A stretch of 64,000 bases of DNA, taken from positions 3,100,001-3,164,000 of the forward strand of contig NZ_CP048817.1 in assembly GCF_014171475.1 (NCBI RefSeq), in the 5' to 3' direction. How positions within the stretch are numbered: position 1 is the stretch's first letter; every line of letters starts with the position of its first letter. The translations under genes were made by a program, and so were the position numbers. Of the stretch, positions 1 to 60,149 are shown one piece after another. The DNA comes from Sphingomonas sp. So64.6b. GTDB lineage: Bacteria; Pseudomonadota; Alphaproteobacteria; Sphingomonadales; Sphingomonadaceae. Under the pieces are notes generated by a model. It did not search any database, was not told the DNA's origin, and saw nothing but the letters and a program-made list of their open reading frames with translations.

Positions 1-342
1 CAATGCCGCGACCGTGCCGCCGAACCGGTCGAGATCCGCCGCAAACGCGGTGTCGGCCTGTGCCTGAGTCCATACCAGCCCGAGCCGGATGCCGGGACCG
101 GTCGTGCCCCAGCCGATCGTCGGCACATCGTCGGGCGTCGGCAGATAGGCGGTCAGCCGGCATTGCTCGAAGCCCTTGATCAGGCGGGCGCAAGCGGCGG
201 AGGGGGCGAGCGCGGGCTGGCCAGCGGGTGGCGGTAGCGGAACACTGGCCAGCACGGTATTCACCGCGGTCACGTCCGCCGCGGTCAGGGCCTTGCCCTT
301 GATCTGGCGGATCGCGTCGAACAGCAGCTTTGCGGCGGTCAT
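1..342 (-). CDS. Phage endolysin, GH24 lysozyme (partial, 3' end beyond window)
   Basis: This is the N-terminal 114 residues of a muramidase; the rest lies left of position 1. After about 54 leading residues comes the GH24 signature: IKGFEQCRLTAY then TIGWG, with catalytic Glu59, Asp71 or Asp72 and Thr75. It would cleave peptidoglycan to release particles. The start ATG at 342 overlaps the stop of the holin-like gene (ATGA), so the two form a lysis cassette. The lysozyme call is secure from the motif; the length and C-terminus cannot be seen. Confidence 0.85.
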   Translation of the reverse strand, partial: MTAAKLLFDAIRQIKGKALTAADVTAVNTVLASVPLPPPAGQPALAPSAACARLIKGFEQCRLTAYLPTPDDVPTIGWGTTGPGIRLGLVWTQAQADTAFAADLDRFGGTVAAL

Positions 343-647
343 GGCGTCACCTTTCCGGAGAGCAGCGCCCAGGCGGTGACGGCGGCGCCGACCAGCCAGC
401 CGAGCGCGGGCGATTTGAGCAGCATCCGGCCGATCGTCCTGGCCCCTTCGCTGCGGTTATTGGCCGCCTCGAGCGTCGCGAGGCGGATCTTGAGATCGGC
501 GATGTCGGAGGCGAGCGGCCCGAGCCCGACCACCTCGCGCGTCAGCCCATCGAGTTTGGCGGAGAGATTATTGACCGAATGCACGACCTCCCGCAGCTGC
601 CCGCGCATTTCGCCCAGGATCATGCTGTTTTCATTGAGGGTCGGCAT
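339..647 (-). CDS. Holin-like small phage membrane protein
   Basis: The protein has 102 residues. The N-terminal two thirds is a helical, probably coiled-coil region (NENSMILGEMRGQL, then DIADLKIRLATLEAAN). One hydrophobic segment near the C-terminus (ALGWLVGAAVTAWALL) ends in a short charged tail. This is the layout of small holin-like proteins encoded just before endolysins, and its stop overlaps the endolysin start. I chose ATG 647 because upstream codons look non-coding; the Shine-Dalgarno is weak, and an ATG eight codons later is possible. The family was not identified by search. A truncated second copy lies at 1996-2205. Confidence 0.6.
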   Translation of the reverse strand: MPTLNENSMILGEMRGQLREVVHSVNNLSAKLDGLTREVVGLGPLASDIADLKIRLATLEAANNRSEGARTIGRMLLKSPALGWLVGAAVTAWALLSGKVTP

Positions 648-708
648 GGGGTGTTCGGTGGTGGCGCGCGGCGGACTCAAAGCGGATACTCCCGTTGCTG
701 GAGTTTCG

Positions 709-738
709 CGATAACGCCACCGCAACACGGGTTGAATC
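709..738 (-). promoter_or_regulatory. GATTCAAC module box upstream of lysis genes
   Basis: On the minus strand GATTCAAC (738-731) is followed 14 bases later by CGTTATCG (716-709), about 60 bases before the holin-like start. The same bipartite arrangement precedes the tailspike, head, tail and fibre modules. The spacing resembles a -35/-10 promoter. That it is a promoter or activator site is inferred. Confidence 0.5.
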
Positions 739-843
739 GACGGTGGCCAGAGCATCGAGCGCTATTTCAAACGCATGGCAGCGGCTCTGGTCAGGCGCGA
801 GGCCCGGATGCTCTCAGCCGAGCGGCAATCCCGTTTGGGTCGG

Positions 844-955
844 AGATATGGGACACCGGTCGGTGCATATCTTCGCCCGGGATCGGGAGCGATCGAGTCA
901 CGCCGGGCCGAATGGGCGGTCGAGAGAGATATGGGACACCCCTGGTTGTATATCT
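844..955. repeat. Two 29-base imperfect palindromes in tandem
   Basis: The units 844-872 and 927-955 both begin AGATATGGGACACC and end in ATATCT, so each can fold into a hairpin with AGATAT/ATATCT arms. They are 83 bases apart in direct orientation. No gene overlaps them convincingly. They may be remnants of an intergenic repeat family or binding sites; the function is unknown. Confidence 0.5.
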
Positions 956-1374
956 CCGGAGGTGAGATGGCCGTATTATTCCTTATTAATCAACGACTTA
1001 TATAGATTTCAACATTGCCACATCGTGGCGGGATCAGAGGAATCCACAGCCAGCATCACGCTGATGCGATCGGGCCGAAACGTGATTGCATTGATAGCAT
1101 TGATTGCATTTGGTCACGGCCATCGTCACCGGTCAGCCGAAATCAACACCGCCGTTTGTTCGAGATGAAGTTCGGGCCGGCTACGAACCAGCGAACCGCC
1201 AGAGCAGCTATGATTTGGGTGGCTTCACTACCACTTCCAGCGGTCTCCCTGCGGGACCTCTTCCGTCATGGTACCGTAGGCCATAAACCCAACAAACAAC
1301 GCCAGGGTACGCCGAGCATGATCGCCGCACCGTAGCGCACCCATCAATGCGATGCTCCCGTTGCTGGAGCAGCG

Positions 1375-1404
1375 TGATGGCGCTACGGCGGCGCAGGTTG
1401 AGTC
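1375..1404 (-). promoter_or_regulatory. Degenerate module box, second copy of lysis leader
   Basis: On the minus strand GACTCAAC (1404-1397) is followed by CGCCATCA (1382-1375). It lies in a stretch of about 65 bases that matches the region upstream of the holin-like gene, including TCCAGCAACGGGAG. One base differs from the core box, and no phage gene follows directly, so it is probably a relic. Confidence 0.35.
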
Positions 1405-1421
1405 GATTGGTAAGGCGAAAG

Positions 1422-1568
1422 ATGAAACGCAGCTTCTGGGATCGCTTTGGTGCGGCCATCATTCTGGGCGGCATTCTGGCGCTGTTCGCGGGCCTGATGA
1501 TCTATGGCAACGCAACACAGGAAATCGAGCGAGGGAACGATCGGCCTATGGGCGGCGCACATCAGTAG
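1422..1568 (+). CDS. Small single-span membrane protein, hypothetical
   Basis: The ORF encodes 48 residues. A short basic N-terminus (MKRSFWDRFG) is followed by one hydrophobic segment (AAIILGGILALFAGLMIYG) and a polar tail. An AAGG lies about ten bases before the ATG. It overlaps no other credible gene and faces away from the phage modules. I do not recognise the family. The membrane segment is clear, but a 48-residue ORF in decaying DNA could be fortuitous. Confidence 0.35.
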   Translation: MKRSFWDRFGAAIILGGILALFAGLMIYGNATQEIERGNDRPMGGAHQ

Positions 1569-1699
1569 TTGCGCCACATTCCCGGTCTCGATGCGATTCG
1601 ATTCGCATGTGCAGCGATCGTCGCCCTCGGTCATTATTATGTCGACTGGGCAGCTCAACTTGCCTTTTTAGGCGCGACGCCCGCAAGGCTGATAGGTGA

Positions 1700-1960
1700 C
1701 AGGGATCAAAACGCAATCGGCTGATCAAGAAGGCGATCAATGCTGTTGGCCTGTGGCAATTGTTCGATCTCGCGATGACGCGCGGCAAGGGATACCATTT
1801 CTCCCCCGGCGACGGCATCTTCTACAGCTATTCGGTCTTCAATGACGTGCCGGTCGTGCGCGCGAAGTTCCCGGCACTGCGCTTCATGAGCACGATGACG
1901 ACCGAAGGCCCAAGCCTTTACCGGCAAGCACCTCACGTCGCGGTATTCGGGCAGCGCTGA
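1700..1960 (+). pseudogene. Probable C-terminal remnant of an unidentified gene
   Basis: An open frame directly after a TGA runs to a TGA at 1960 and encodes protein-like sequence (LINK..LMTRGKGYHFSPGD style hydrophobic/aromatic pattern, then PVVRAKFPALRFMS). No good start codon or ribosome site exists at its beginning; only an internal TTG at 1760. It reads like the tail of a longer enzyme whose front has been lost. I cannot name the parent family. It sits immediately before the truncated holin copy, consistent with rearranged DNA. Confidence 0.3.
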
Positions 1961-1995
1961 TCCGCACACGTCCCGACATTCCGGAAACCAGCGCT

Positions 1996-2205
1996 AGGCC
2001 GTAACGGCCGCGCCGACCAGCCAGCCGAGCGCGGGCGATCTGAGCGGCATCCAGCCGATCGTCCTGGCCCCTTCTCTGCGGTTATTGGCTGCCCCGAGCG
2101 TCGCGAGTCGGCCCTTAAGATCGGCGATGTCAGAGGCGAGTGGCCCAAGCCCGACCACCTCCCGCGTCAGCCCGTCGAGTTTGGCGGAGAGATTGTTGAC
2201 CGAGC
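1996..2205 (-). pseudogene. Truncated second copy of the holin-like gene
   Basis: These 210 bases match 371-580 at roughly 90 percent by eye, in the same orientation. The minus-strand frame is still open through the region matching SVNNLSAKLDGLTREVVGLG and the membrane segment, then hits TAG just before the original C-terminus. The N-terminal codons and the adjoining endolysin are absent. It is a decayed duplicate, either from recombination between related phages or from a local duplication. Confidence 0.75.
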
Positions 2206-2280
2206 GACTGCCGCGACGCCAATAGCACCTTGTCTAAATGCACTCGAAGCGCGAGAAGGCCCACAGGGATGGAGCGACTT

Positions 2281-3015
2281 ATGAAAGCATGGCAATTTGC
2301 GAGCAAGGTGGGAGCTCGCATTTCAACGAAAATGCCTAGGCTTGGAGCCCCACTTCAACTGATGGCCCACCGTCGCATTGGTGAGCTTGAACTCAACCAC
2401 ATGCGCGAGCTGGCTGATCGGGAAAAGATCGCGCTCGATATTGGCGCAAACTGGGGGCCTTATACGGGCGCTCTTCGCGGACATTGCAAGGCGGTGATCG
2501 CCTTCGAGCCCAATCCCAACTTGGCTAAAATGCTCGCGCGCGCATGGCCTGGCATTCGGGTGGAGCGATGCGCCTTGAGTGATCGTGACGGTGTCGCCAT
2601 TCTACGCATGCCAGTTACTGCAACAGGCCAGATGCTGCCCGGTTTCGCGTCCATCGTCGATGACCCAGCGTTCACTAACTTCGTGGAACAGCAGGTTCCG
2701 ATGCACAAGCTCGACGATTTCAAGCTGGAGAATGTCGGTTTCATCAAAATTGATATCGAAGGGCACGAGATCGCTGCAGTTCGAGGCGGCTGGGATACGA
2801 TCTCCCGTGATCGGCCGGTCATGCTGATCGAGAGCCAGTCCGAACACGCAGTTGGCTGCCCCGACGCGCTTGTCGATCTACTGGCGACGCTCGGTTACGA
2901 GGCGTCGTTCCTACACGAAGGCAAGTTCAAACCGTTCTCGGATTGGTCGCCCAACCTTCGTGCAACAAACTATGATGGCCCAATCAACAATTTTATTTTT
3001 CGAGCTAACCGATAA
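2281..3015 (+). CDS. FkbM-family SAM-dependent methyltransferase
   Basis: The protein of 244 residues has the FkbM layout. A SAM-binding motif (ALDIGANWGPYTGAL) lies near residue 55, AFEPNP follows as the acidic end of strand 2, and the family signature KIDIEGHEIAAVRGG lies near residue 160. FkbM enzymes commonly O-methylate sugars of surface polysaccharides or secondary metabolites; the substrate cannot be read here. I chose ATG 2281, which has GGAG at good spacing; ATG 2269 is an alternative. It heads a plus-strand group with a second FkbM gene, a carbamoyltransferase and a flippase, which points to glycan decoration. Confidence 0.8.
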   Translation: MKAWQFASKVGARISTKMPRLGAPLQLMAHRRIGELELNHMRELADREKIALDIGANWGPYTGALRGHCKAVIAFEPNPNLAKMLARAWPGIRVERCALSDRDGVAILRMPVTATGQMLPGFASIVDDPAFTNFVEQQVPMHKLDDFKLENVGFIKIDIEGHEIAAVRGGWDTISRDRPVMLIESQSEHAVGCPDALVDLLATLGYEASFLHEGKFKPFSDWSPNLRATNYDGPINNFIFRANR

Positions 3016-3181
3016 GTTAGCAGAGAAAAAGGTCTGCGGCAAAGATCATCCAATATTTAACTTGTAGCGGAGAAAGAACTTGGAAGCACATCGACCAATG
3101 CCGATGAAGATACTCCCACAGGTCCTTCGCAGCTCTGTCTATAGCCGTTACTACGCAAAGCGACACCGCCAATAGCCGCAA

Positions 3182-3874
3182 TTGTTCGACCGAGCAACGT
3201 TGCGTCATGCGCCTTCCGTTGCGATGGTAAACCTAGTTCCCGGCGATATTATTTCCGGCTACATTGCTTTCACGGGTGAATATGAACCCGATCTTTCCGG
3301 CCGCATTTCCACTCTTGCCCGGGATGGCGGGCTGTTCGTGGATGTTGGCGCCAACATGGGATATTTCTCGCTGCTTTGGGCGGGCGCCCGACGCGATAAT
3401 CATGTCATTGCGTTTGAAGCCTCGCCAGGAGTCTATACCAAGCTAATCGGTAACGTCGCAGCCAACGGCTTGGGCGATCAAATCGAGACGTTGGCAAAGG
3501 CCGCGCTCGACAGCACGGGAGAAATCACCTTTGCAGTCGGACCGCCAGACCAGACCGGGTGGGGCGGCCTCGCGCCCGAAGGCGGCGAGGGTGTGACCGT
3601 CCCTGCCGTGCGCCTCGACGACGTTGTCGGCGACCGAACCGTCGCTGTTATGAAGGTTGATGTGGAAGGCGCGGATTTACTCGTATTGCGCGGCTGCGAA
3701 CGCCTGCTCAAAGAGAAGCGCGTTAATCGGATATTTTACGAGTGTAACCCTACCCGTATGGCTGAACTCGGCCTTGCAGTTGACGATGCCGAGCGATACC
3801 TTTCCGAGGTCGGTTACAGGACATCGCCGATCAACAGTCTGAGAACCGAATGGATGGCCGTGCCGCGCGAGTAA
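3182..3874 (+). CDS. FkbM-family methyltransferase with in-frame amber upstream
   Basis: The open frame of about 230 residues contains FVDVGANMGYFSLLWAG (SAM motif), AFEASP, and the FkbM signature KVDVEGADLLVLRG. The only start in the open part is TTG 3182. Reading upstream in the same frame, ATG 3098 begins a plausible N-terminus (MPMKILPQVLRSS), which ends at TAG 3173-3175 three codons before the TTG. The natural protein therefore probably began at 3098 or 3104 and is now interrupted, unless the amber is suppressed or the TTG works. Function otherwise as for its neighbour. Confidence 0.65.
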   Translation: MFDRATLRHAPSVAMVNLVPGDIISGYIAFTGEYEPDLSGRISTLARDGGLFVDVGANMGYFSLLWAGARRDNHVIAFEASPGVYTKLIGNVAANGLGDQIETLAKAALDSTGEITFAVGPPDQTGWGGLAPEGGEGVTVPAVRLDDVVGDRTVAVMKVDVEGADLLVLRGCERLLKEKRVNRIFYECNPTRMAELGLAVDDAERYLSEVGYRTSPINSLRTEWMAVPRE

Positions 3875-3987
3875 GGCCCTAAGAATACGTCGCGTAAGCC
3901 GCATTCCTTCGTTTCGTCTTGGCAACAGCATTTCCAACGTTATGAGACGTTCCCGAAGAAAGTTCAGGCGGGGGCAGGTGGAATTTA

Positions 3988-5670
3988 ATGATCGTTCTTG
4001 GCATCAATCATAGCTCTTATCACGATTCCTCCGCGGCAATTGTCAAAGACGGTCTCCCAATTTTTGCCATAGCCGAAGAGCGGCTGAGCAAGGTCAAGCA
4101 TGACGCCGCCTTTCCCGACCTGGCGATCAGGGCTTGCTTAGACCATGCCGGCATCACCCTCGGGGAAGTCGATGAAATCGTCATCGGCTGGCAGGAATAT
4201 GCGCAAAGTCTCAAGCGGACCGTCGGCAACGTCCTGTCACGCAAAGATCCTATGCCGTTCAAGGCGCTCCCCGGGTTCATCGTTCGCGATTCTTTGGCCC
4301 AATATCAACGAAAAACCGAGCGAATGATGAAACGTCATTTCACGGGTAAGTTCGTCGCCCCGCGCCGCATCGATCACCATTATGCGCATGCGCTGAGCGC
4401 CTATGTGCCGTCGGGAATGGATGAAGCAACGGTCGTGGTAATCGATGGTCGTGGCGCATGGGAAGCGTCGAGCATCTGGCACGGAAAAGGCACCCGGCTG
4501 GAGCATGTCGAAACGATCAATTTTCCAAATTCACTTGGGCTATTCTACGCGACGTTCACCGGATTCCTCGGCTTCGAGAAATATGCCGATGAGTGGAAGG
4601 TCATGGGGCTGGCGCCTTATGGCACGCCAGGCGCGGTCGATCTTTCGCCGTTCGTGTCCTATGGCGACGGCCGATACGAGGTGCGTTCCGACCTGCTGCT
4701 GTTGCGCGAGGGGGACCGCGAATATGCCGGCGTGGAACGCTATCTCGGCGCGGCACGCGACCCTGATGCCGAACTGACCCAGGCGGACCGCGATCTGGCC
4801 TGGGCGGTGCAGGACATGTGCGAACGCGTCGAGTGCGACTTCATCGCCAAGGCGATCGAACGCGCCGGCAGCCGCAACCTGTGCATTGCCGGCGGCGTCG
4901 GCCTCAATTCCAAGGCGAACGGCCTGTTCCTGCAAAAGGAACTGTGCGACGAGATTTTCGTCCAGCCCGCGGCCGGCGATGATGGCGTTGCACTGGGCGC
5001 GGCGCTGGCCCCCTCGTTCGAGGCGGGCGTGCGCGAGATGACGCAGATGTCGGCTTATCTCGGGCCGAGCTTTACGCGCGAACAGGTCAGGGCGGACCTG
5101 ATCAAGTTCAAGCTGCCTTTCCGCGAAGTCGAATCGCCGGCCAAGGCCGCGGCCGAACTGCTCGCCAAGGGCGCGCTGGTCGGCTGGTTTCAGGGGCGTG
5201 AGGAATTCGGTCCGCGCGCGCTCGGCCACCGGTCGATCATCGCCGATCCGAAGCCGATCGAAAATCGCGACCGGGTCAACAATGCGGTGAAATTCCGCGA
5301 GGAGTGGCGGCCGTTCGCGCCGTCGGTCCTGGAGGCGCATTGCGACGAGCTGTTCGAAAGCTATCAGGACAGCCCGTTCATGATCCTGACCTTCCCGGCC
5401 AAGCCGCTCGCCAAGGAGAAGCTGGCAGCGGCGATCCATGTCGATGGCAGCGCGCGCGTGCAGACGGTGCGCGAAGGCCGCAACGATGTGTATTTCGACA
5501 TGATCAGCGAGTTCCACAAGCTGACCGGAACACCGGGCGTGATGAACACCAGTTTCAACCTGAAGGGTGAAGTGATCGTCAACACCCCGTTCGACGCGGT
5601 TCGCACCTTCTATACCTCCGGGCTGGACGCGCTGGTGATCGAGAACTTCGTGGTTGAAAAAGGCGTTTGA
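3988..5670 (+). CDS. NodU/CmcH-type carbamoyltransferase
   Basis: This 560-residue protein is full length for the family. The N-terminal ASKHA-like domain begins MIVLGINHSSYHDSSAA and holds the metal-binding DHHYAHALSAY near residue 130. The C-terminal domain carries GPRALGHRSI near residue 407 and a late NTSFN. These enzymes transfer the carbamoyl group of carbamoyl phosphate to hydroxyls of sugars, nodulation factors or antibiotics. Its place between FkbM methyltransferases and a flippase suggests it decorates an exported polysaccharide. Its stop overlaps the flippase start. The acceptor is unknown. Confidence 0.88.
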   Translation: MIVLGINHSSYHDSSAAIVKDGLPIFAIAEERLSKVKHDAAFPDLAIRACLDHAGITLGEVDEIVIGWQEYAQSLKRTVGNVLSRKDPMPFKALPGFIVRDSLAQYQRKTERMMKRHFTGKFVAPRRIDHHYAHALSAYVPSGMDEATVVVIDGRGAWEASSIWHGKGTRLEHVETINFPNSLGLFYATFTGFLGFEKYADEWKVMGLAPYGTPGAVDLSPFVSYGDGRYEVRSDLLLLREGDREYAGVERYLGAARDPDAELTQADRDLAWAVQDMCERVECDFIAKAIERAGSRNLCIAGGVGLNSKANGLFLQKELCDEIFVQPAAGDDGVALGAALAPSFEAGVREMTQMSAYLGPSFTREQVRADLIKFKLPFREVESPAKAAAELLAKGALVGWFQGREEFGPRALGHRSIIADPKPIENRDRVNNAVKFREEWRPFAPSVLEAHCDELFESYQDSPFMILTFPAKPLAKEKLAAAIHVDGSARVQTVREGRNDVYFDMISEFHKLTGTPGVMNTSFNLKGEVIVNTPFDAVRTFYTSGLDALVIENFVVEKGV

Positions 5671-6968
5671 TCAATCGCGCCAAATCGCGATTGGTGCGCC
5701 TGTTTCCGTCCCCGCGCCTGCTCCTTCAGATCGTCGAACAGTCATTCGCGACGATCGCGGTGCAGGCGTTGGGCGCGATCACCACGCTGTCGTTCGTCCA
5801 TCTTTTGCCGCAGTCCGAATATGCGTTGTTCGGGCTGTGCATCGTCAGCCTCAATTTCATCGTCGTCAGCAGCGATCTCGGCCTGGGCGCGTCGATGCAG
5901 TTCTTCTGGCGCGAGGCGGTGCGCGGCGGAGTGGCATTTCCGATCCGCTATCGGGCGATCCTGCGGCTGCGGATCTGGTTCTTTGGCCTGTCGTCGCTGA
6001 TCGGCCTGTCGATCCTTGGCGTGATGATCGCGCGCCATGGCGGCACGACCGCGACGATCGCGACGTTGCTCGCGCTTGTCGCGGTGACCGGCTGGCTGCA
6101 GGTCAAGAGCGGCATGACGGTGTCGCTCGCGCGGCTCGGGATGCAGTTGCGGCATGCCTATTCCGCCGAGCTGATGGGATCGCTGGCGCGCGCCGCGTTG
6201 GCCGGGCTGGGGTTTTTCCTCCTGATCCGCGGCGCCTGGTTTCCGCTTGCCACGATGGGCGCGACCACACTCATCACGATCATGATCGCGCGGCGCAGCG
6301 TCGATCCGGCGGTGTACCGCGCGACGAATGCCCAGGCCGAGATGAAACCGGTGCTTGGTTATGTGCTGAGCACGATGCTGGGCACGATCATCTTCACGAC
6401 GCAGGACATATTGGTCTATTCCCTGGCGTCGCTGCACGGCAGTTCGCAAGTGATCGCGCAGACCTTTGCACTGGGCCGTCTGGCCGCGATCTTCGTCGTG
6501 ATCAGCGGCGTGATGGCGAACGTGATCATCCCGCGCATCGCCAATTTGAGCAGTGACGGCCATGCGATCCGCAACGGATTGCTACCGCCCGCGATCGTGG
6601 CGCTTGGCTGCGCAATGCTGACCGCATTGGCAGCGGGTTTTTCGGACCAGACGCTGCTCCTGCTGGGCAGTGCCTATGGCGGCCTCCGTCTCGAGCTCAT
6701 CCTTGCGCTGTCGGCTGCGTCGCTCTCGCTCGTGGCGCAGATGCTGGGCCGCTTCAACCGCGCCATGGGTTGGGTGAAGATCGAAACCATGGTCTATCTG
6801 GTGCACATCGTCGCCATTGTCGGCGTCGGTTATTTTTCCAGCTTTACCAACACGAGAGCGGTCCTGACCTTCAACCTGATTCTTTCGACCTTTTCATTCG
6901 TCGAGATGCTGTTCATCACCTGCGTCGGTTTGCGCACGCTCAGGCAACGGGCGAAGGGTGAAGGGTGA
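5667..6968 (+). CDS. Polysaccharide flippase (Wzx/MATE-like membrane protein)
   Basis: The protein has 433 residues and about twelve to fourteen hydrophobic segments, with a basic, amphipathic N-terminus and a charged loop every 20-30 residues. This is typical of polysaccharide biosynthesis flippases that move lipid-linked repeat units across the inner membrane. The start TTG 5667 overlaps the carbamoyltransferase stop, so translation is probably coupled. The family assignment rests on topology and neighbours, not on a diagnostic motif. It ends about 60 bases before the convergent phage fibre gene. Confidence 0.75.
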   Translation: MINRAKSRLVRLFPSPRLLLQIVEQSFATIAVQALGAITTLSFVHLLPQSEYALFGLCIVSLNFIVVSSDLGLGASMQFFWREAVRGGVAFPIRYRAILRLRIWFFGLSSLIGLSILGVMIARHGGTTATIATLLALVAVTGWLQVKSGMTVSLARLGMQLRHAYSAELMGSLARAALAGLGFFLLIRGAWFPLATMGATTLITIMIARRSVDPAVYRATNAQAEMKPVLGYVLSTMLGTIIFTTQDILVYSLASLHGSSQVIAQTFALGRLAAIFVVISGVMANVIIPRIANLSSDGHAIRNGLLPPAIVALGCAMLTALAAGFSDQTLLLLGSAYGGLRLELILALSAASLSLVAQMLGRFNRAMGWVKIETMVYLVHIVAIVGVGYFSSFTNTRAVLTFNLILSTFSFVEMLFITCVGLRTLRQRAKGEG

Positions 6969-7027
6969 AGGGGGAAGGCTGGGCAGCGCCGGGCTGGGCT
7001 GATCGCCCCTCCCCGCGGGTGCCGCCT

Positions 7028-9430
7028 TTAGTCGGTGGTGATCGACCAGCCCTTGGCGATCAGGCTCGCCTTTGCGGTCGCGCCGGCGCCGGATGGTGCC
7101 GCCTGCGGATACACACCGACCAGATATTGCGAAAGGCTGGCCGATCCGCCGCTCTTGCCATTCGCATCGAGCGCGACAAGGCGCGCGTTCACCTGCGCGA
7201 CGGTCAGGCCCGACACGCTGTGTGCGTAGGTGACGAGATTCGGGGTGAGCGTGAGGTCAAGGTTCGCGGCGATCGCGGGACAGCGGGAGAGGCTCAATCC
7301 GGTGAGGCCATTCAGCTTCGCCAACAGCGGATTGCCTAGTGTTGCCGCGGTGAAGCCGGCGGTCGGCCCGATGCCGAGCGCCCGCATCCTGGCGCCGGAA
7401 AGGCGATACAGGTCGGCGTCGGTGATGATGATGCCGCTGACCGTCTCGTTCGTGCCGTTGATGTTCAGGCCGTTCAGCGGAAAACCTTCGTCGATCACCG
7501 AAACCGCGGAAATCCGGGCGTTGCCGGTAAATGCATTGATCAACAGCGACGCGCCGGTCGACGCGTGAGCATAGAAAACGACCTCTTTCGGATTGGCGTT
7601 GGGGAAGGTCCAGGCGAGCGATTGGGTCGCATCGACCCGGTTGACGCCGCTCGTGTCGTACGCGGTGGTTGCATAGGGCGTTGTCGGGTCGTTGAAGACG
7701 CTGACATTGAAAGCGCCGTTCGCCACCGTCGTCAGCGCGAGACGATACCAGTTGTTGACCGGTGGCAGATGCGACAGGAGATCGGCATATTTGGTGCCGT
7801 CGGGAACGGCAAACAGGCCGTTCGACCGCGTAAAGGCCAGGCCGGCGGTCGCCATGTCGACGCCGAGCAGATTATATCCGGTCTGATCGTAATGCAGCGT
7901 GTCGCTGAAATAACCCAGGCCCGAAAAAGTCTGCGCCAGATTGGAGCCGACCTTCATCCAGCTCGAAAAGGCCGGATCGGCGGCGACCGCCGCCTGCGAC
8001 GCCCTGATCTTCGCCGAAGCGACCGCATTGCCGCCCGACTGATTGGTGCCGAGATTTTCGGTCAGCCACCAAATGTCGGGGAAGTCGGACTTCACGCGCG
8101 CGGCGAATGGCCGAAGCGACGCCTCATGGGCCGCCTGTGATGCACCGCCAAGGGCATCCTGCTCGCCCTGCGAATGATAGATGATCTTCTTTTTGACGGC
8201 GAATCCGAAGCGCTCGATCTCGCGAAGCGCGCGCTGCATATGGTCGCGCATATAATTGTCGTAGAGATTGGCGGGATCGGACAAATCCCAAGTGCCGCCC
8301 GACAGCGATGCGATGTCGGTCGTGCCGGCCAGAGCGGCTTTATAGGCGGCGACCATCGAAGACCCGCCGACCGCGCAATCGACGAAGATGACCGCGCCAC
8401 CTCCGCCCGCCGCCCAGGTCTGTGCGAAAGCCGATTGCGGCCCGCCAAAGGTGCGGCCGAGGCGGCACGGCCCGAGCGGCAGCACAGCGCCAAAGCCGCC
8501 GTTATTATAATGATATTCATAACCGTAACCGGCGCTGAGGGCAGTCGTGGTGGCATAGTTGGTCGAAAAGCCATCGGCGTTCGACTGGCCGACCATGAAC
8601 ACCACCGTCACCGGCTCATAGCCGGAGCCAGGGATTCCGAGCAGCACAAATCGCGTCGGCCATACGCCGCCCGCCCTCGGTCCGTACTGACGGCCGGAGC
8701 TGGTATCGATGTAAGTCGCACCGTCGGGACCCCCCGTCAGGGCGTTTGGTGCGCCGCGCCCGTACATGATCGGGGTAATCGACGCATTGACGGTAGCCGC
8801 AGCGGCGGTTGCGATCGCGGCCTGCGCCGTGGCTTGCGTTGCGGCCGCCGGCGCCGCGATGATCGCAGCGATATTGGCTGCGGCCACGTCGATTGTTGCG
8901 ACATGGGGCGCCACCGTCGAGACCGCCGCCGCGTGAGGCGCGACCTGCGCGACCTGAAGGGCGATGCCGGCGACGTCGCCGATGGTATCCGGGCCGGTGA
9001 GATCCGCGGCGACCGCAGCGATTGACGGCAAGCCGGGCACGATTGCGGCGATCTCGCTTACATGCGGCGCGACGGCGGCGATAGATGTGACGGCGCCCGC
9101 GACCGTTGAAATATCGCTGCCCGCCAGCAAATTCTCGCCCACTGCGACGATCGATGCCACATCGGACAGGGGAATCTCGAGCCCCTCCTCCCCGAGCGGT
9201 ACTTTCAGCGCGCGGCTCGCCTTGTCCTCGGTGACGAGAGCCTTGACCGCGGTGACCGTGCCGCCGGTGGCGGTGAATTCCACGGTGTAGGACAGGGCCG
9301 GGACGGCCGTGCCGTCGACCTCGACCAGGATATCGGCCGCGCCGACGATCGAGAAATCGAAGCTGAACGCGGTTTGCGTTCCGTTCGCGGTATAGGGTCC
9401 GGTGAATATTGTTGGGCTGATTGCTGCCAC
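7028..9430 (-). CDS. Phage tail fibre with SGNH (sialate O-acetylesterase-like) domain
   Basis: The N-terminus of this 800-residue protein resembles the T7-type fibre attachment domain (TGPYTANGTQTAFSFDFSI). A long alanine-rich region with recurrent IAAVAPH-type repeats follows (about residues 115-220). A GDSL/SGNH esterase then has its nucleophile in FMVGQSNADG near residue 280, block III-like HSQGEQDA near 421, and the Asp/His pair in SDTLHYDQTG near 510. It probably deacetylates a surface glycan during adsorption. The start is GTG 9430, preceded by AGGAGG. It lies directly downstream of the internal-virion genes and has its own module box. Confidence 0.8.
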   Translation of the reverse strand: MAAISPTIFTGPYTANGTQTAFSFDFSIVGAADILVEVDGTAVPALSYTVEFTATGGTVTAVKALVTEDKASRALKVPLGEEGLEIPLSDVASIVAVGENLLAGSDISTVAGAVTSIAAVAPHVSEIAAIVPGLPSIAAVAADLTGPDTIGDVAGIALQVAQVAPHAAAVSTVAPHVATIDVAAANIAAIIAAPAAATQATAQAAIATAAAATVNASITPIMYGRGAPNALTGGPDGATYIDTSSGRQYGPRAGGVWPTRFVLLGIPGSGYEPVTVVFMVGQSNADGFSTNYATTTALSAGYGYEYHYNNGGFGAVLPLGPCRLGRTFGGPQSAFAQTWAAGGGGAVIFVDCAVGGSSMVAAYKAALAGTTDIASLSGGTWDLSDPANLYDNYMRDHMQRALREIERFGFAVKKKIIYHSQGEQDALGGASQAAHEASLRPFAARVKSDFPDIWWLTENLGTNQSGGNAVASAKIRASQAAVAADPAFSSWMKVGSNLAQTFSGLGYFSDTLHYDQTGYNLLGVDMATAGLAFTRSNGLFAVPDGTKYADLLSHLPPVNNWYRLALTTVANGAFNVSVFNDPTTPYATTAYDTSGVNRVDATQSLAWTFPNANPKEVVFYAHASTGASLLINAFTGNARISAVSVIDEGFPLNGLNINGTNETVSGIIITDADLYRLSGARMRALGIGPTAGFTAATLGNPLLAKLNGLTGLSLSRCPAIAANLDLTLTPNLVTYAHSVSGLTVAQVNARLVALDANGKSGGSASLSQYLVGVYPQAAPSGAGATAKASLIAKGWSITTD

Positions 9431-9454
9431 ATGCGCCTCCTGATGAGAGGCGCG

Positions 9455-51865: not shown

Positions 51866-51955
51866 CCGTTCGCCCTGAGCTTGTCGAAGGGCGCGTGCCG
51901 CGAACTCGCGGCGCGTTGGCGGAGAGAGGGCTTCGACAGGCTCAGCCCGAACGGG
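51866..51955. repeat. Intergenic palindromic repeat element C
   Basis: Arms CCGTTCGCCCTGAGCTTGTCG and CTTCGACAGGCTCAGCCCGA (with AACGG) are inverted around a GC-rich centre. Sequences of this kind are scattered through many proteobacterial chromosomes. Here the element lies between capsid and Bbp16-like genes without touching either ORF. Confidence 0.7.
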
Positions 51956-51980
51956 GATATGTCGGCACTAATTCAGCGGC

Positions 51981-52031
51981 CTAATTCGGGGACACAATAC
52001 TTAACTAAATAAGTATTATGTCCCCGAATTA
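51981..52031. repeat. Palindrome D, REP-like, possible terminator after capsid gene
   Basis: CTAATTCGGGGACACAATAC and its complement with one mismatch form a stem of about 22 pairs around an 8-base loop (AACTAAAT). It ends 11 bases before the capsid stop. Such GGGGACA palindromes resemble repeats linked to REP-associated transposases. It could also act as a bidirectional terminator. Confidence 0.7.
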
Positions 52032-52042
52032 GGGGGCGCCGG

Positions 52043-53065: not shown

Positions 53066-53068
53066 GTC

Positions 53069-53713
53069 TTACTGCCCTCCTTTGGGTGCGTCGTCGGGAT
53101 AAAGCGTTTCCGCCGCACCCTTTCTGGTGATGGGTGCGCGGGATCCGCGCGTGAAATCATTGTCTTCGCCGATCGCCTGGCCGACCTTGGCAAAGGCGCG
53201 GATCATCTCCGGGTGATTGCCAAGGCCGCTTTCGTCGAGCAGCACGCGGAACGGCGAGCCGCGCGCCAGACCCAGCGTGTCGAGTGCCGAGGCCGCGGTC
53301 GCGATGGTGCGGTTCCAATGCGCGCCACCGATCTCCGGATCGGCCCGCGCGCTGTCGAGCCACGCCTTGCGTTCGGTCTGCACCTGAGTGACGATCTGCT
53401 GGTTGAACTTGTCGGTGATGCTTTGCGCAAACTGCGCCGCGACCGGCATCAACTTGTTCGCCGCATCGTTCGACAGGCCAAGCTCTCGGAACACCGGCGT
53501 CGCCGCCTCGACCGCTTGCGCATCGAGCGTAAGGCCTTCGGCTGGGGTCAGCTGATAGCTGTCGGGAATGCCCGACGACATATCGTCCGCGTCGCCATCG
53601 GACGCGCTGTCGCCATGGTCGAACTCGCCACCGCCAAGCGCGGTCGGATCAAGCTCAATCGCCGGTTCCATGCTCTGGTCCGAGGTCTGAATAAGGGTCG
53701 TTTCGTCTGCCAA
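53069..53713 (-). CDS. Scaffold-like phage protein
   Basis: The 214-residue acidic protein lies immediately upstream of the capsid gene. A disordered acidic start (DHGDSASDGDADDMSSG) is followed by helices (AATPVFRELGLSNDAANKLM, then FNQQIVTQVQTERKAW). Capsid scaffolds share these properties. It overlaps the Bbp19-like gene by 59 bases. A GATTCAAAC box lies about 45 bases before its start, inside that gene. No protease motif was seen. Scaffold is inferred from position and composition. Confidence 0.7.
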   Translation of the reverse strand: MADETTLIQTSDQSMEPAIELDPTALGGGEFDHGDSASDGDADDMSSGIPDSYQLTPAEGLTLDAQAVEAATPVFRELGLSNDAANKLMPVAAQFAQSITDKFNQQIVTQVQTERKAWLDSARADPEIGGAHWNRTIATAASALDTLGLARGSPFRVLLDESGLGNHPEMIRAFAKVGQAIGEDNDFTRGSRAPITRKGAAETLYPDDAPKGGQ

Positions 53714-53987
53714 GTTTTTTCTCCATGGGGGCTGACTGCACCTCTTCGCGCAGGGTTTGAATCAGCGTGTGGACAGGAATGCCGGAGGGCGATGGTTTGC
53801 CTTGTCCCTCCTCCAGTTCGCGCAGGACCTCGAGCGCGAGCCCGCGCCGGCCTTCGAGATAAAGCGCGCGGCCATCGCCGGCCGTGGCGCTGGTTTCGAA
53901 CACGCCGGCGGTGCGGATCAACGCGAACAGGAAGCGGCGAAACGCCGCGTTTTCCATCAGGGTGAGTTTGTCGGAAAGGTCGATCAT
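53655..53987 (-). CDS. Bbp19-like phage protein
   Basis: The 110-residue protein has FRRFLFALIRTAGVFETSAT then YLEGRRGLALEVLRELE. This helix-turn arrangement, with the EGRRxLALE block, is characteristic of Bbp19-type proteins encoded between portal and scaffold in BPP-1-like phages. ATG 53987 has GGAGG that actually belongs to the edge of repeat element B. Function in the phage is unknown. Confidence 0.75.
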   Translation of the reverse strand: MIDLSDKLTLMENAAFRRFLFALIRTAGVFETSATAGDGRALYLEGRRGLALEVLRELEEGQGKPSPSGIPVHTLIQTLREEVQSAPMEKKLGRRNDPYSDLGPEHGTGD

Positions 53988-53993
53988 CTCAAT

Positions 53994-54150
53994 TCCTCCC
54001 CCGGGAACCGAGGGAGGGGTTGGGGGTGGGTGAGCGGCGGACGGGGCTCGATGCCCCGTTCGGCGCTTCGAGCTTGACGCAACGAGTCTTTTTTTGAGCG
54101 CGCGGACGCGCGCACCCACCCCAACCCTCCCTTGAAAGGGAGGGGCTCAA
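53994..54150. repeat. Intergenic palindromic repeat element B
   Basis: GAGGGAGGGGTTGGGGGTGGG (near 54009) pairs with CCCACCCCAACCCTCCC (near 54115), with further CCTCCCCCGGGAACC and CTTGAAAGGGAGGGG edges. It fills the gap between portal and Bbp19-like genes, and its left edge supplies the latter's Shine-Dalgarno sequence. Confidence 0.7.
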
Positions 54151-54162
54151 TGAGGCACCCCC

Positions 54163-55821
54163 TCACGACCCCATCAACCCGGCCAGGCCATCTGGCCCCG
54201 CCATCTCGCCCAGCGACTTGACCGCCGCAGCGCCGTCCTTCGCCGGCCCGGCCATCGCCGCCAGCTTGGCCGCCTGCGCTTCCTGCGCCCGGCCTTCGCG
54301 CAATTCCTGCGCATCCTCGACCGATCGGATGATCCGCGGCGGCGCGCCCGCCCGGTCGGCGAAATCGTCCACCGCCGCATCGACATCGAGCCGGTCGCCG
54401 GCCTCCGGAAACTGCGCGGCGAGCGAGCCGATGAACGACACCGTCCGCTCGATCTGGCCGATCCCGACCATCCGCTGCATCTGCGCGAGGATCGACACGA
54501 AATCGACCTTGATCGGCTGTCCCTGCAGCGCCTCGGGCGCGGGCGGGAACAGTTTCTTGCGGCTCATGATGCCGAACGTGCGATCGATCGCCACCTCCAG
54601 CTTCTCATTATTGACGCGTTCGATCACCGGACCAAGCTGAGTCAGCTTCTCCTCGTTGCGGCTGGCGATCTCCTCGATATTGCGCGGCTGGATGCCGGCC
54701 ATGTTGGTGATCGCCATGAACAGATCGGCATAGGTCAGCCGCCCGACCGCATCGGCGCAGCGCTGCACATCCTCCATGATCGCGCCGATCGCCGCTGGAT
54801 TCATCTGGTACGGCACGATCACCCCGGCCGCGTCGACCGATGAGGCGGAGACGATATTGCCCGCTTGGCCGGTCAGCTTGACCGACGCGGGAACGATCTT
54901 CTCCGGCCTGATCAGGAATTCGGTCGCCTGGGTCTTGCGCCGGGTCTGCAACTGCAGCTCGCGCATATCGGGCAGCGCATCGAAACCCGGCGATGTGCCA
55001 TAGGTATCGCCGCCGATCGTGTCCCAGCGCGGCGCCCAGAAGGGCTGTTCCTCATAACCCTGCACGCGCAGCACACGCGCTGCGTTGCTGTCATTCTCGT
55101 CCCAATAGACCGACCGCCACGGCTTACCGCGCGCGGTCTTCGCGCCATGCGCCTGATCCTCATTGGGCTCGATCGCGTGCAGGACGTTGACCGTCTCGTC
55201 ATAGCGGCCATTGCCGTACGCGGTGCGCACAAAGTCGCTCGCCCCGTCCAGGCCGAACGACTGGACCAGCTGATGCACGGTCATCGGCACGCGACGGTAC
55301 AAAGTGTCGGGCACGCTCGCATCGGACAACGCGATCCAATATTCGCCGGCGGTCAGCGAATGGCACACCGCGCCTTCGCGCCAGTGATCGACCATCACGC
55401 AGGCCTCGGTGCCGAACATGCCCATTTCGGCGTAGCCGGATTTCACCGCGCCGTAGAAATTGGTGCCCGACAGGAACGCGTACATGCGCCGCTCGACCTC
55501 GGCGAGCCAGGTCTTCACCTCGCCATTGGCGGCCAGGTCGGCATCGAACGGCGCAAGCCGGAACCAGGGCCGCGACGGCGAGGAAAGGCCGCTGGTCATG
55601 CCACCGGTCAGCGTACGGAAACTGAGGATCGCGTGGCTGTTGTAGATCGCGCGATTGGCACGCTTGAAATTGCGATTCTGTTCCTCGTTGAGGAAACGCG
55701 AGCGCGACGGCTGTGCATATTGCGCGATTTCTTTCCACTCCGCCTCATAAGGCTGGCGTGCGGATTTCAGCGCGGACAGGCGGCGGCTGCACCGTTCCTT
55801 GATTGTCTGGCTCATGCTCAC
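54163..55821 (-). CDS. Portal (head-to-tail connecting) protein
   Basis: The 552-residue protein matches podoviral connectors: KERCSRRLSALKSARQPYEA, EWKEIAQYAQPSRSRFLNEE, IYNSHAILSFRTLTGGMTSG and LSSPSRPWFRLAPFD, then ELQLQTRRKTQATEFLIRPE and an Ala-rich C-terminus. The length is usual for the family (T7 gp8 is 536). Twelve copies would form the DNA portal. It is complete and follows two small paralogous proteins. Confidence 0.92.
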   Translation of the reverse strand: MSMSQTIKERCSRRLSALKSARQPYEAEWKEIAQYAQPSRSRFLNEEQNRNFKRANRAIYNSHAILSFRTLTGGMTSGLSSPSRPWFRLAPFDADLAANGEVKTWLAEVERRMYAFLSGTNFYGAVKSGYAEMGMFGTEACVMVDHWREGAVCHSLTAGEYWIALSDASVPDTLYRRVPMTVHQLVQSFGLDGASDFVRTAYGNGRYDETVNVLHAIEPNEDQAHGAKTARGKPWRSVYWDENDSNAARVLRVQGYEEQPFWAPRWDTIGGDTYGTSPGFDALPDMRELQLQTRRKTQATEFLIRPEKIVPASVKLTGQAGNIVSASSVDAAGVIVPYQMNPAAIGAIMEDVQRCADAVGRLTYADLFMAITNMAGIQPRNIEEIASRNEEKLTQLGPVIERVNNEKLEVAIDRTFGIMSRKKLFPPAPEALQGQPIKVDFVSILAQMQRMVGIGQIERTVSFIGSLAAQFPEAGDRLDVDAAVDDFADRAGAPPRIIRSVEDAQELREGRAQEAQAAKLAAMAGPAKDGAAAVKSLGEMAGPDGLAGLMGS

Positions 55822-56006
55822 CCCCCCAGGATCGTGGTGGTCGCGGCGCTGCCCAACCCGAGCGCGCCGCCATAGGCCGATGCCATCAGCGCGCGGCGGC
55901 GCCTGATCTCGTCATCGACACGCAGGCCGGTCGCGCCGCCATCGGGCAGCTTCAGTGCCTGGCGTTCGGGAATGGTCTGAACCTTGGGTGGTTTGGGCGA
56001 ACACAT
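55818..56006 (-). CDS. Small phage protein with GLGSAATTTILGG tail, copy 2
   Basis: The 62-residue protein starts MCSPKPPKVQTIPERQALKL and ends GLGSAATTTILGG. Beginning and end repeat those of the next gene upstream (56009-56233), so the two are paralogues. Its stop overlaps the portal start (ATGA). I recall similar short proteins beside podoviral portals but no function. Confidence 0.65.
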   Translation of the reverse strand: MCSPKPPKVQTIPERQALKLPDGGATGLRVDDEIRRRRALMASAYGGALGLGSAATTTILGG

Positions 56007-56240: not shown

Positions 56241-56271
56241 CAATAGGGCCGCCAAACTAGATGTTGAATCG
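56241..56271 (-). promoter_or_regulatory. GATTCAAC module box upstream of head module
   Basis: On the minus strand GATTCAAC (56271-56264) is followed 15 bases later by CCTATTGC, ending eight bases before the first ATG of the head module. The arrangement parallels the tail-module box, which also abuts its start codon. Confidence 0.5.
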
Positions 56272-57850: not shown

Positions 57851-58010
57851 TGGCTCTTCCTTACCGCAAAACCGGCGTCCGGTGTCGGGTGCGCATGGCA
57901 CCTGCCTGCCAAGTGGCTCGCGATCGCCAGTCTGTCCAGCCCGGTTCCCGACAACGAACAGCGTCAAGGCGCGGCGGCCTGTACGGGCCGCCGCGCCCAA
58001 CAACGATGTG

Positions 58011-60095
58011 TCAGACCCGCAACATCATCCAGGTGACATTGGTCGAACTTCCGGGAGCCGAACTGAAGTTGATGCGGAATCCGGTCGTGGTCTTGTTGGA
58101 AATCCACCACCGTGCATCCCACGACAATTCGACGCTTGGGATGGAGTAATTATTGTCTACTTCGGCCCGCGCTGGAATGGCAGCCAGCGCGGCAGGCGGC
58201 GCGCCTTTTGCGGTAAAGGCAACGCCTGTATCGGAGAACGTCGTGGTAGTCGCCGGGAACTCCCAATAGCCTTCGAAATATCCTTTGGAGACGCTGTAGC
58301 GATAGACCCGGCGTTTATAGCGCGCCGCATTCGGCAGGCTGTAAAAACCCATATCGACTCGGTTTCCCGCAGTGACCGTCAATCGCTTGATCGCGGTATT
58401 ATCGGCCGGCGCGACGAATGGCTTGACGCTCACGCCGGTTTCTCCACGTTTGCCGACGAGCGTCGAGCAATAGGCATATTCGTCCGCCGCAAGGGTCGAT
58501 GTACCATCCGTCACCGGCGCGGGAACCGACGCGTAACCCGCATGCCCGGTGGCGACGGCGACCGGAAAAACGACGTCGATATAGGTCGCGGCCGCGGCTA
58601 CCGGCTCGACACCGCCCAGGTTACGGGCGAATACGGGCGCATTGAGGAGATCGAGATCGGTCAGGCCGATCATCATCGTCTGGCTGTCTGCTGACAGGCT
58701 CGATCGATCGGCCGACAATGATCCTTGCGTCGCGGGATTGCTCTGTACGAACCGCCCGGCGAAGCGCGGCGTAGCGTTGGAGAACAGCGCGTTGCCGCCC
58801 TGCATGCCGCCACGCTGTACCTGATCGAGGATCGGCATGTCGTAGTTGAGCAGCTTCGCTCCCTCCGTGGTTGCGGAGATCGCGATGTTGCGCAGCGTAA
58901 CCGATGAATCGATCGTATCGCTGATCACCACGCCGTGCAGCACGGGACGTAACAGTGGCACAGCGGCCGCACCGGCGCCGGTGACCGTCACATTGCTGAT
59001 CGTGGCGCTGGTCGCGCGCGAAACGTAAACGCCGATGCGATTGCTTTCCGTCGTCACCGCATCGACCGTGCCGCTGAACGCCTGATCGCCGCCAAAATCC
59101 GTACCGTTCCAGGTGTCGACATGGAACGCTGGCGCACCCAGTCGCAATGCGCATTCTGCCACCTCAAGCCGTGCGCCGAGCAGCTCGACGCCCGCCCCTG
59201 CCAGTGCGACGCTTTGCCCCCAGCCGGTACCCGTCGCATTGACCACTACGGCGTGGCCGGAGGCATACAGGCCATAGGATTTCTGCCAGTCGGTGGCATA
59301 TTGTTCGGGACTACGGCCGGACACGAAATACAGGCCGGGAAAATGGCAGGTGTCGATCGTGGTGTTGAACGCGGTGACCATCAGGCCGCGATAGGCGCCG
59401 CCGATCTTGCAACGCGTGATCGCCGAATTGACGATATAGATGAACTGCACCGCCGTTGCATATTTGCCGAAGCCGGCATTGATCGTGAAATCGCTCCAAT
59501 CGACACCACGCCCAGCCGAGATCAGTACCGCGCCGGGCGCGCCATATGCCGGCGAGATGGAACCGTCCGGCTTGCGCAGGATATTGTCCGCGTCGATATA
59601 ACCTTCGGGCGCGCGAATGCACGGCGTGTTGTGGCTATCGTTGGTGTTGAAACGAATCAGCGAATTGAGATCGCCCTGGCCGACGATCTTGCTGGTGTTG
59701 GTGACGCCGGCCTTCCACGGAAAAAGCGGAATTGCCGGATCGCAGAAGATCGTCCCCTTGGGCAGCGAAAGAGGTCCGAAATAAAATGCGGCCTGCAATC
59801 GGGCGCTGTTCTGCGTCGGGATCGGGGCCGTCGAGTCGTCCAGCACGATCCCGAACGCGGTGGCGCAGGGCATGATCTCCGGGTCGAGGCGGAAACCCCG
59901 ACCATTGGACGACAGCGCCGCAGTGTAGGGGTTGGCTGCGACATAGGTCGCGTCAACCACCGCATCATAGATATACTGAGCAGCACCGGCCTTTCCGCCA
60001 AGCTTGTAGCTCGTCGTTTCGATTCGTTCGACGTCAGTCGCGATGCTGGTCGACGCGATGTCGAGGAAAGATCCGTAAATCGGGGTGGCAGTCAT
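58011..60095 (-). CDS. Phage tailspike, right-handed beta-helix (pectate-lyase-like)
   Basis: The 694-residue protein begins with a short head-binding part (TATPIYGSFLDIASTSIATD). A mid-region has beta-helix style repeats: ISAGRGVDWSDFTINAGFGK, YIVNSAITRCKIGGAYRG and ALRLGAPAFHVDTWNGTDFG. The C-terminal part is rich in beta strands. Such spikes bind and cut surface polysaccharides. Its module box is 24 bases upstream. It stands alone, separated from the head genes by three host genes. Confidence 0.75.
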   Translation of the reverse strand: MTATPIYGSFLDIASTSIATDVERIETTSYKLGGKAGAAQYIYDAVVDATYVAANPYTAALSSNGRGFRLDPEIMPCATAFGIVLDDSTAPIPTQNSARLQAAFYFGPLSLPKGTIFCDPAIPLFPWKAGVTNTSKIVGQGDLNSLIRFNTNDSHNTPCIRAPEGYIDADNILRKPDGSISPAYGAPGAVLISAGRGVDWSDFTINAGFGKYATAVQFIYIVNSAITRCKIGGAYRGLMVTAFNTTIDTCHFPGLYFVSGRSPEQYATDWQKSYGLYASGHAVVVNATGTGWGQSVALAGAGVELLGARLEVAECALRLGAPAFHVDTWNGTDFGGDQAFSGTVDAVTTESNRIGVYVSRATSATISNVTVTGAGAAAVPLLRPVLHGVVISDTIDSSVTLRNIAISATTEGAKLLNYDMPILDQVQRGGMQGGNALFSNATPRFAGRFVQSNPATQGSLSADRSSLSADSQTMMIGLTDLDLLNAPVFARNLGGVEPVAAAATYIDVVFPVAVATGHAGYASVPAPVTDGTSTLAADEYAYCSTLVGKRGETGVSVKPFVAPADNTAIKRLTVTAGNRVDMGFYSLPNAARYKRRVYRYSVSKGYFEGYWEFPATTTTFSDTGVAFTAKGAPPAALAAIPARAEVDNNYSIPSVELSWDARWWISNKTTTGFRINFSSAPGSSTNVTWMMLRV

Positions 60096-60118
60096 ACAAG
60101 TCTCCTATTGGGAGACGT

Positions 60119-60149
60119 CGTATTGAACACACCAGGATCGGTTTGAATC
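60119..60149 (-). promoter_or_regulatory. GATTCAAA module box upstream of tailspike
   Basis: On the minus strand GATTCAAA (60149-60142) is followed 15 bases later by TCAATACG (60126-60119), 24 bases before the tailspike ATG. An AGGAGA ribosome site lies between. This isolated copy in front of a single phage gene supports a role in phage transcription. Confidence 0.5.

Follow-up and report, generated by a model that had tools for sequence, protein, structure and literature searches.

The DNA analysed here, called the window, is the whole stretch of 64,000 nucleotides at positions 3100001-3164000 of Sphingomonas sp. So64.6b (source genome G000; one contig, 5,057,175 bases), and it carries genes for a podovirus-type phage particle that are divided into modules lying among host genes. 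This gene set, considered below as a candidate gene transfer agent (GTA), is described together with its terminase genes, its promoter-like motif and its counterparts in other Sphingomonas genomes (cited by G numbers, with contigs after a colon). Coordinates are those of the window unless given as genome positions, and values below 1 or above 64000 extend its numbering past the edges.

Particle modules and their surroundings

The head and tail genes were all placed on the minus strand by an earlier, sequence-only reading, and this was confirmed by PHROG and Pfam matches. The head module (51399-56006) comprises a small gene before the portal (55818-56006; same-place matches of 65% in G288:C101 and 81% in G282), the portal or head-tail connector (54163-55821; PF12236, E 6.4e-143), a Bbp19-like protein (53655-54119; PF25181, E 2e-6), the head protease (53069-53713; PHROG 458, E 4.6e-46), the major capsid protein of the epsilon15 gp7 family (52043-53065; PF20911, E 1.3e-121) and the cement protein of the Bbp16 family (51399-51833; PF21190, E 2.3e-19). 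At the level of sequence, chance resemblance is excluded by the portal and capsid matches. The nearest named phages by portal were Cobetia phage Carin1, epsilon15 with its relatives, and BPP-1 (36-40% identity); a near-identity search of window positions 1-16000 against phages gave zero matches.

The tail module (7028-15893) comprises tail tubular protein A (TTA, the adaptor; 15276-15893; PHROG 394, E 9.2e-40), the nozzle or tail tubular protein B (TTB), a gp13-like internal virion protein (11881-12351; PHROG 308, E 5.5e-32, and phage protein comparison), a gp14-like internal virion protein (11372-11881; PHROG 418, E 5.9e-33 for the open reading frame (ORF) 11372-12256; 38% to epsilon15 gp14), a lysozyme-like ejection protein (9886-11334; PHROG 10475, E 1.2e-13) and a tail spike with a SASA esterase domain (7028-9430; PF03629, E 1.7e-8; 73% to G046), the N-terminal part of which is similar to spikes of related genomes. 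Read in sequence, the two modules give the gene order of epsilon15, BPP-1 and Carin1, so that the podoviral order proposed for the locus once the host genes are removed was upheld. The tailspike of the sequence-only reading is taken to be another gene, the beta-helix protein at 58011-60095; it gave zero matches in the five regions compared and was left out of the particle set, the spike of the module being 7028-9430.

The nozzle consists of a main part (12508-14289; PHROG 376, E 1.4e-140; 36.5% to BPP-1 Bbp13) and an N-terminal ORF (14647-15276; PHROG 376 positions 2-103, E 2.7e-29), followed by an out-of-frame continuation of that first ORF (14286-14828), which had no family match and was 55-62% identical to the C-terminal parts of the first ORFs of G046, G170, G282 and G288:C101, matched in another frame. 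One frameshifted tail gene had been noted previously: the first nozzle ORF is indeed broken in G000 and, among the genomes examined for it, only there. Division into two ORFs is usual in the relatives as well, for which reason the split as a sign of decay was mostly rejected. By eye, 14286-14828 looked Hint/intein-like (it begins with C and ends with HN), and the shorter ORFs of G329 and G288:C119 are without this part.

A lysis cassette extends from about -676 to 755 (minus strand). Its small first gene (339-755; orthologs of 77% in G046, 86% in G193 and 43% in G170/G171) gave zero matches in family searches and is holin-like by position only. The gene at 1-342, whose ORF extends to about -311, is assigned to an endolysin through its 70% ortholog in G046, itself a PHROG 7 endolysin (E 2.2e-52).

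Between the cement protein and TTA lie host genes (gap 1, 15957-51056), the content of which varies between species. The genes scanned were ordinary host genes (PHO4, PhoU-like, VIT-domain, exosortase, two-component system, glycosyltransferase, efflux and flagellin genes), which confirms for these the earlier statement of about 35 kb of host DNA; the PHO4 ORF (15957-16961) has its stop 26 bp upstream of the motif before TTA described below. FkbM methyltransferases, a carbamoyltransferase and a flippase-like protein were seen beside the spike (2230-6968) and may alter the surface sugars that it meets. A YadA-type trimeric autotransporter (60494-63565), close to the head module, had zero matches in the five regions compared.

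A portal search of 295 Sphingomonas genomes found relatives in 22 (E 1e-20 or lower): nine at 77-100% identity, referred to as carriers (G000, G046, G193, G170, G171, G042, G283, G288 and G282; the assemblies of G042 and G283 are fragmented), six at 37-61% (G329, G109, G292, G160, G289 and G278) and seven at 23-26%. In G288:C101, G329, G109 and G292 the terminase large subunit gene (TerL) adjoins the portal; these compact relatives are different, more distant elements than the set of the carriers. G288 was seen to hold both forms of the same particle type, a compact prophage-like element (C101) and a split copy (C119).

Terminase genes and the promoter-like motif

The absence of a terminase reported from the window did not hold for its surroundings. 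When epsilon15, BPP-1 and Carin1 proteins were compared by tblastn with genome positions 3000001-3244000 of G000, an epsilon15-type TerL was found at 76056-77606 (minus strand), 12 kb beyond the window edge and 20 kb before the portal; TerL shares the strand of the portal at distances of 59 kb (G046), 51 kb (G193), 21 kb (G170) and 20 kb (G171), which with G000 are the five genomes having the two genes on a single contig. A search of G000 with PF03237 found nothing. Adjoining the G000 TerL are a helix-turn-helix (HTH) regulator and a DnaD-like helicase loader, both weak matches (E 7.6e-9 and 5.1e-7), which are possible early-gene remnants; the reported lack of a repressor or replication gene therefore stands within the window and not beyond it. 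Most carriers and three compact elements have a counterpart of the regulator; none of them has one of the DnaD-like gene. Integrases of epsilon15 and BPP-1 had no match in carrier regions of 20-244 kb, no genome-wide integrase search being made. At the split locus of some carriers a BPP-1-type terminase pair was observed (G170:C1:3273715-3275773, G171:C1:5405141-5407184, G283:C122 and probably G042:C261).

Comparison of upstream regions gave a motif of GATTCAA, exactly 17 bases and YTA. It occurs five times in the window (0.05 expected; none of 100 shuffles reached five), each time on the minus strand: before the lysis cassette (712-738), before the spike (9458-9484), 120 bp before gp14 within the gp13 gene (12001-12027), before TTA (15904-15930) and before the portal operon (56244-56270). 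The motif stands before TTA in all eight carriers with this region examined and before the portal in eight of nine. In compact G288:C101 it precedes the small gene of the portal, TTA, gp14 and the spike, and it is thus probably an ancestral phage promoter. The G000 genome holds 44 sites, as against 3 for the reversed pattern. Among 25 genomes, the counts were 44, 26, 29, 18, 22, 40, 37, 33 and 23 in the carriers (0-3 for the reversed control), 0-2 in 12 genomes without particle genes and 3, 4, 2 and 0 in four with compact elements. The CcrM methylation site is GANTC; since GATTC contains it, cell-cycle methylation could be relevant to the motif.

Five of the 44 sites belong to the particle modules, 18 to a family A, 15 to a family B and 6 to neither. 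Family A sites have an operator-like palindrome; six of them go with a near-complete gene of the terminase small subunit (TerS; one of these frame-damaged at its start), two with a truncated TerS, and ten are remnants. The palindrome, GATATGGGACA-N6-TGTCCCATATC or a variant, lies upstream of the motif in all 16 aligned TerS units of G000, G046 and G193, and in the three TerS-TerL pairs of G170, G171 and G042 a different one, close to ATGTCAG-N8-CTGACAT, was seen by eye in a comparable position. A half of the operator-like palindrome, GTGTCCCATATCT, was matched before the lysis cassette at 844-856, and a second half site at 927-939 (both minus strand). The palindrome ahead of TerS could be the TerS site itself, as the palindromes differ between subclades whose TerS share no more than about 40-50% identity.

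The family B repeat is about 300-500 bp long and comprises a TCCCG(T/C) array at near-fixed spacing (22, 22, 12, 10), the motif and CTCTTT(G/C)ACATGA; no long shared ORF was found downstream, and the repeat is non-coding and dispersed, its array iteron-like. It occurs in G000 and G193, and the few sites examined in G046, G170 and G171, which are not a systematic sample, were not of this family. A known RNA was rejected after Rfam returned nothing for 10 loci. The G000 loci (genome positions) are 134662, 745716, 1031011, 1973697, 2236003, 2797864, 2891310, 2943936, 3330617, 3360336, 3846282, 4149094, 4391952, 4439175 and 4496590.

Three further TerS-TerL pairs, each after a motif, lie at 606949-609088, 1296776-1298918 and 1714464-1716593 of the G000 genome. 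Identity among these units is 93-94% over 2.14 kb; with an orthologously placed G046 copy it is 82%. Being nearer to each other than to that copy, they suggest recent copying or gene conversion. Their common ends lie about 20 bp outside the genes, and no terminal inverted repeats of an insertion sequence were seen in the alignment. TerL of this dispersed type was present in all nine carriers and otherwise only as more distant single TerLs in six compact-element genomes, with TerS adjoining it in eight carriers (the G288 copy is at a contig end). A search of 18 genomes, in which some matches were partial, gave TerS in G000 (8), G046 (7), G193 (2), G170 (4), G171 (4), G042 (12), G283 (10), G288 (6) and G282 (10), whereas among the nine non-carriers searched a single match adjoins the TerL of G329 and the remaining genomes had none.

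The small-subunit assignment is based on PHROG 309 matches in G000, G046, G288 and G282 (E 3e-30 to 5e-35) and on 40-49% identity to annotated phage small terminases; comparison with solved structures gave only short HTH-like matches for TerS and none for TerL. The 13 intact TerS of G000, G046 and G193 contain no internal stop, and the median ratio of nonsynonymous to synonymous substitution rates (dN/dS) over their 78 pairs was 0.21 (0.06-0.35); four of 17 matches were left out as damaged or partial (816k, 2863k, 2876k and G046 4868k). The eight TerS-only loci inspected have chromosomal neighbours, two of them at the same place in G170/G171, and in six of the eight the TerS end overlaps or lies at most 60 bp from the stop of a convergent gene. 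Several dispersed copies keep TerS with TerL in pieces, and no integrase was seen by eye beside the inspected loci. An origin from multiple decayed prophages is disfavoured by the common promoter and operator and by the dN/dS of the intact copies.

Split arrangement, inheritance and selection

Order, strand and break of the modules were alike in the five genomes used for gap measures (G000, G046, G193, G170 and G171), with gap lengths and contents differing: the distance from cement to TTA was 35.5, 25, 26.5, 58 and 57 kb, respectively. The gene order thus held in relatives, and an assembly error as the cause of the gap was rejected, as the break recurs in three other genomes of one contig each (G046, G170 and G171) and in G193. 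In G288:C119 and G282:C153 the same distance is just 1.9 and 1.2 kb, with one or two genes inserted, at least one on the opposite strand; no TerL was found within 36.8 kb before the portal of G288:C119. Some gap genes are common to G000, G046 and G193 with order or orientation changed, and G170/G171 have essentially none of the gap 1 genes of G000. G042 and G170 also have four host genes in common (74-90% identity), a block that separates gp14 from the lysozyme-like protein or the spike, and together with the gap turnover this points to insertions at several module borders. At G193:C37:1-20322 an inversion was observed, with spike and lysis genes on the strand opposite to the nozzle, and the genes after gp14 in G193 match a PHROG protease and tail protein instead.

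Outside Sphingomonas, eight loci of Novosphingobium, Sphingobium and an unassigned bacterium were compared; all four with a TerL match have it at most 1.2 kb from the portal, and cement and TTA are 0.2-2.3 kb apart in the six that hold both. Viral contigs held both cement and TTA in 41 of 66 loci at 0.17-4.5 kb, the contigs or flanks being too short for a long gap.

Inheritance was followed with a tree built from lepA, for which the 30 genomes whose lepA best matched that of G000 were taken. The nine carriers and G215 formed one clade (support 1.0) with subclades {G000,(G046,G193)}, {G170,G171,G042,G283} and {G288,G282}, and the same three subclades were obtained with support 1.0 from seven concatenated particle proteins. 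Loss from sister strains was not the pattern found: the set is kept by the nine carriers, and G215, a 94% complete draft without particle genes, is the sole non-carrier in their clade. The agreement of the two trees indicates that transmission is vertical with the host lineage.

The earlier suggestion that dN/dS be read was followed by the Nei-Gojobori method for 13 particle genes, compared in five pairs from within subclades (56 cells). Values of 0.02-0.39 were obtained in 54 cells with dS up to 1-2, and the other two were both gp13 (0.47 and 0.54); lepA gave 0.006-0.084 for comparison. The TerL cell for G000-G170 (0.81) is meaningless, as different TerL types are compared in it. The particle genes are under purifying selection.

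Interpretation and comparison with known systems

The sequence-only reading had named a domesticated locus and a rearranged old prophage side by side. The recurrent break, retention in nine carriers and purifying selection make domestication the better of these, and that the locus is a domesticated particle system of the podovirus type (epsilon15/BPP-1 group) is, taken alone, very probable. That this vertically inherited system also works as a GTA is held with less confidence, as the reading somewhat favoured. The genes kept, of the Caudoviricete type and intact but for the nozzle frame break of G000, are those for terminase, portal, capsid, protease, cement, adaptor, nozzle, internal virion proteins, spike and lysis, in modules 20-60 kb apart, with the same motif before the head, tail, gp14, spike and lysis modules and the dispersed TerS genes. 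The ancestral phage would have had one promoter per module, as compact G288:C101 still has, so that expression would survive the insertion of host genes between them. Particle, lysis and terminase genes would be activated together as one regulon, particles would be assembled and loaded by the terminase with chromosomal DNA into a head of roughly 40 kb, the lysis cassette would release them, and the species-specific spike would attach them to related cells. With particle genes spread over about 78-106 kb and several loci, as against 39.7 kb for the epsilon15 genome, they cannot fit one head if, as assumed, the head is of epsilon15 size.

A further step, a GTA with addressed packaging in which the dispersed TerS genes set packaging starts at several places of the chromosome, is put forward tentatively and is rather doubtful. 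Each such gene would provide a phage promoter, an operator-like palindrome and its own packaging start, the last on condition that pac is located within or next to terS, as some pac phages have it.

Several observations weigh against the system proposed, whose assignment to the GTA class is that of a candidate. The carriers form one clade, so that co-occurrences among them are not independent; the joining of the subclades differs between the lepA and particle trees; the TTB tree groups the compact element of G288 with its split copy (0.85), and in the major capsid tree the compact elements fall inside the set of the carriers. The main-locus terminase of G170/G171 is a different, BPP-1-type TerS-TerL, a phage-like mosaic swap in a subclade that keeps a portal 82% identical to that of G000. 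The lysozyme-like protein of G000 is short (482 residues against 740 in G046 and 690 in G042), its first nozzle ORF is broken in frame (in a Pro/Gly-rich linker), and metagenomic relatives with portals of 77-82% have a cement-TTA gap near 1 kb and could be phages. Of the large ejection protein (queried as a 2,019-residue part of G288:C101) no match was found in eight carriers, and in G288 it is present only in the compact element; matches were limited to G288:C101 itself and G109, and compact G329 was also negative, having a gp17-type protein instead. RcGTA-like uptake runs through competence proteins, and if such uptake were used the ejection protein might be dispensable. In addition, the motif is missing before the portal in G282 and before the main TerL of G000, G046 and G193; six of the 44 G000 sites fall in no group; GTGTCCCATATCT also occurs at five further, unassigned places in the main regions of G000, G046 and G193; and TerS keeps an HTH (HTH_23, E 5.7e-9; Terminase_5, E 3.1e-4), unlike the RcGTA TerS.

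Some of these points would also be expected of an old prophage in slow decay, broken up by host genes and rearrangements with the remainder not yet lost. The nozzle frame break, the short lysozyme-like protein, the absence of the large ejection protein from eight of nine carriers, the tail-side inversion of G193 and degenerate pieces of TerL close to the lepA gene of G046 and G193 agree with it, but dN/dS at or below 0.39 in nearly all within-subclade comparisons, conserved module promoters, retention in all nine carriers sampled and the nature of the genes kept (particle, packaging and lysis) make it unlikely. A still-moving element, in which a very large phage-related island carries the host genes as cargo, or a satellite whose TerS(-TerL) cassettes hijack particles, would explain the turnover of gap content between species, the TerL type swapped in one subclade, the near-identity of the three G000 units and the many promoter-plus-operator remnants. 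Particle and host trees nevertheless agree on three subclades, neither the inspected TerS loci (by eye) nor the main region (epsilon15/BPP-1 matches) yielded an integrase, and the span is more than twice the epsilon15 genome, so that this explanation, too, is improbable. Capsid and tail could finally have been kept as a killing or signalling particle for a purpose other than DNA transfer, with which the lost ejection protein and the strongly divergent spike genes would agree; purifying selection on terminase, portal, capsid and protease, which a tail-only weapon does not need, and the multiplication rather than loss of TerS genes render this very improbable.

As a candidate GTA, the Sphingomonas system was compared with those described. 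Alphaproteobacterial GTAs are of the RcGTA or Bartonella type (PMC9662315), and the RcGTA type (Rhodogtaviriformidae) likewise has particle and lysis genes without lysogeny genes at several loci, vertical inheritance and host genes around (PMC9662315). RcGTA derives from another phage type than the epsilon15/BPP-1 type found here and has a single short TerS without an N-terminal DNA-binding domain and packages nearly at random (PMC6854486), in contrast to the multicopy TerS with HTH. Neither an RcGTA-type terminase nor a TerS without a DNA-binding domain was found with the Sphingomonas set. Among 22 genomes, a TerL cluster which we take, from a motif, to be RcGTA-like was present in 10 of 13 non-carriers and none of nine carriers; G215 and G109 had none in this cluster, and G060 had one hit besides.

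FpGTA of Faecalibacterium prausnitzii, described in 2026 and the one podovirus-like GTA in the literature consulted, belongs to another phylum, and the part of the description seen gives a TerS without obvious DNA-binding domain and mentions no dispersed TerS copies (PMC12946183). Epsilon15, BPP-1 and Carin1 share with the Sphingomonas set the gene order and homologous portal, capsid, cement, adaptor and nozzle; their genomes are contiguous (40-42 kb, with an integrase in epsilon15 and BPP-1), whereas the Sphingomonas modules are scattered, being separated by 20-59 kb and by 25-58 kb in the five genomes measured in place of a contiguous genome of about 40 kb. If the TerS copies are packaging starts, a headful run into the neighbouring chromosome would resemble lateral or generalised transduction by pac phages (PMC12946183; see also PMC8575950); the start in lateral transduction is one prophage, and in Sphingomonas many TerS genes standing alone would take its place. 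The literature covered, largely outside subscription papers and preprints, reported no podovirus-type GTA in Sphingomonas and no dispersed TerS copies.

The system is a candidate for a variant of the GTA kind not reported in that literature and, if true, would be a podovirus-type GTA candidate in Alphaproteobacteria. It offers a likely route to scattering, in that a phage whose modules each have their own promoter can accommodate host genes between them. One GTA may have been replaced by another, which is possible since the carriers are without the RcGTA-like terminase found in most of the sampled non-carriers. With multiplied pac-type TerS, the aiming of gene transfer at parts of the chromosome becomes a testable question.

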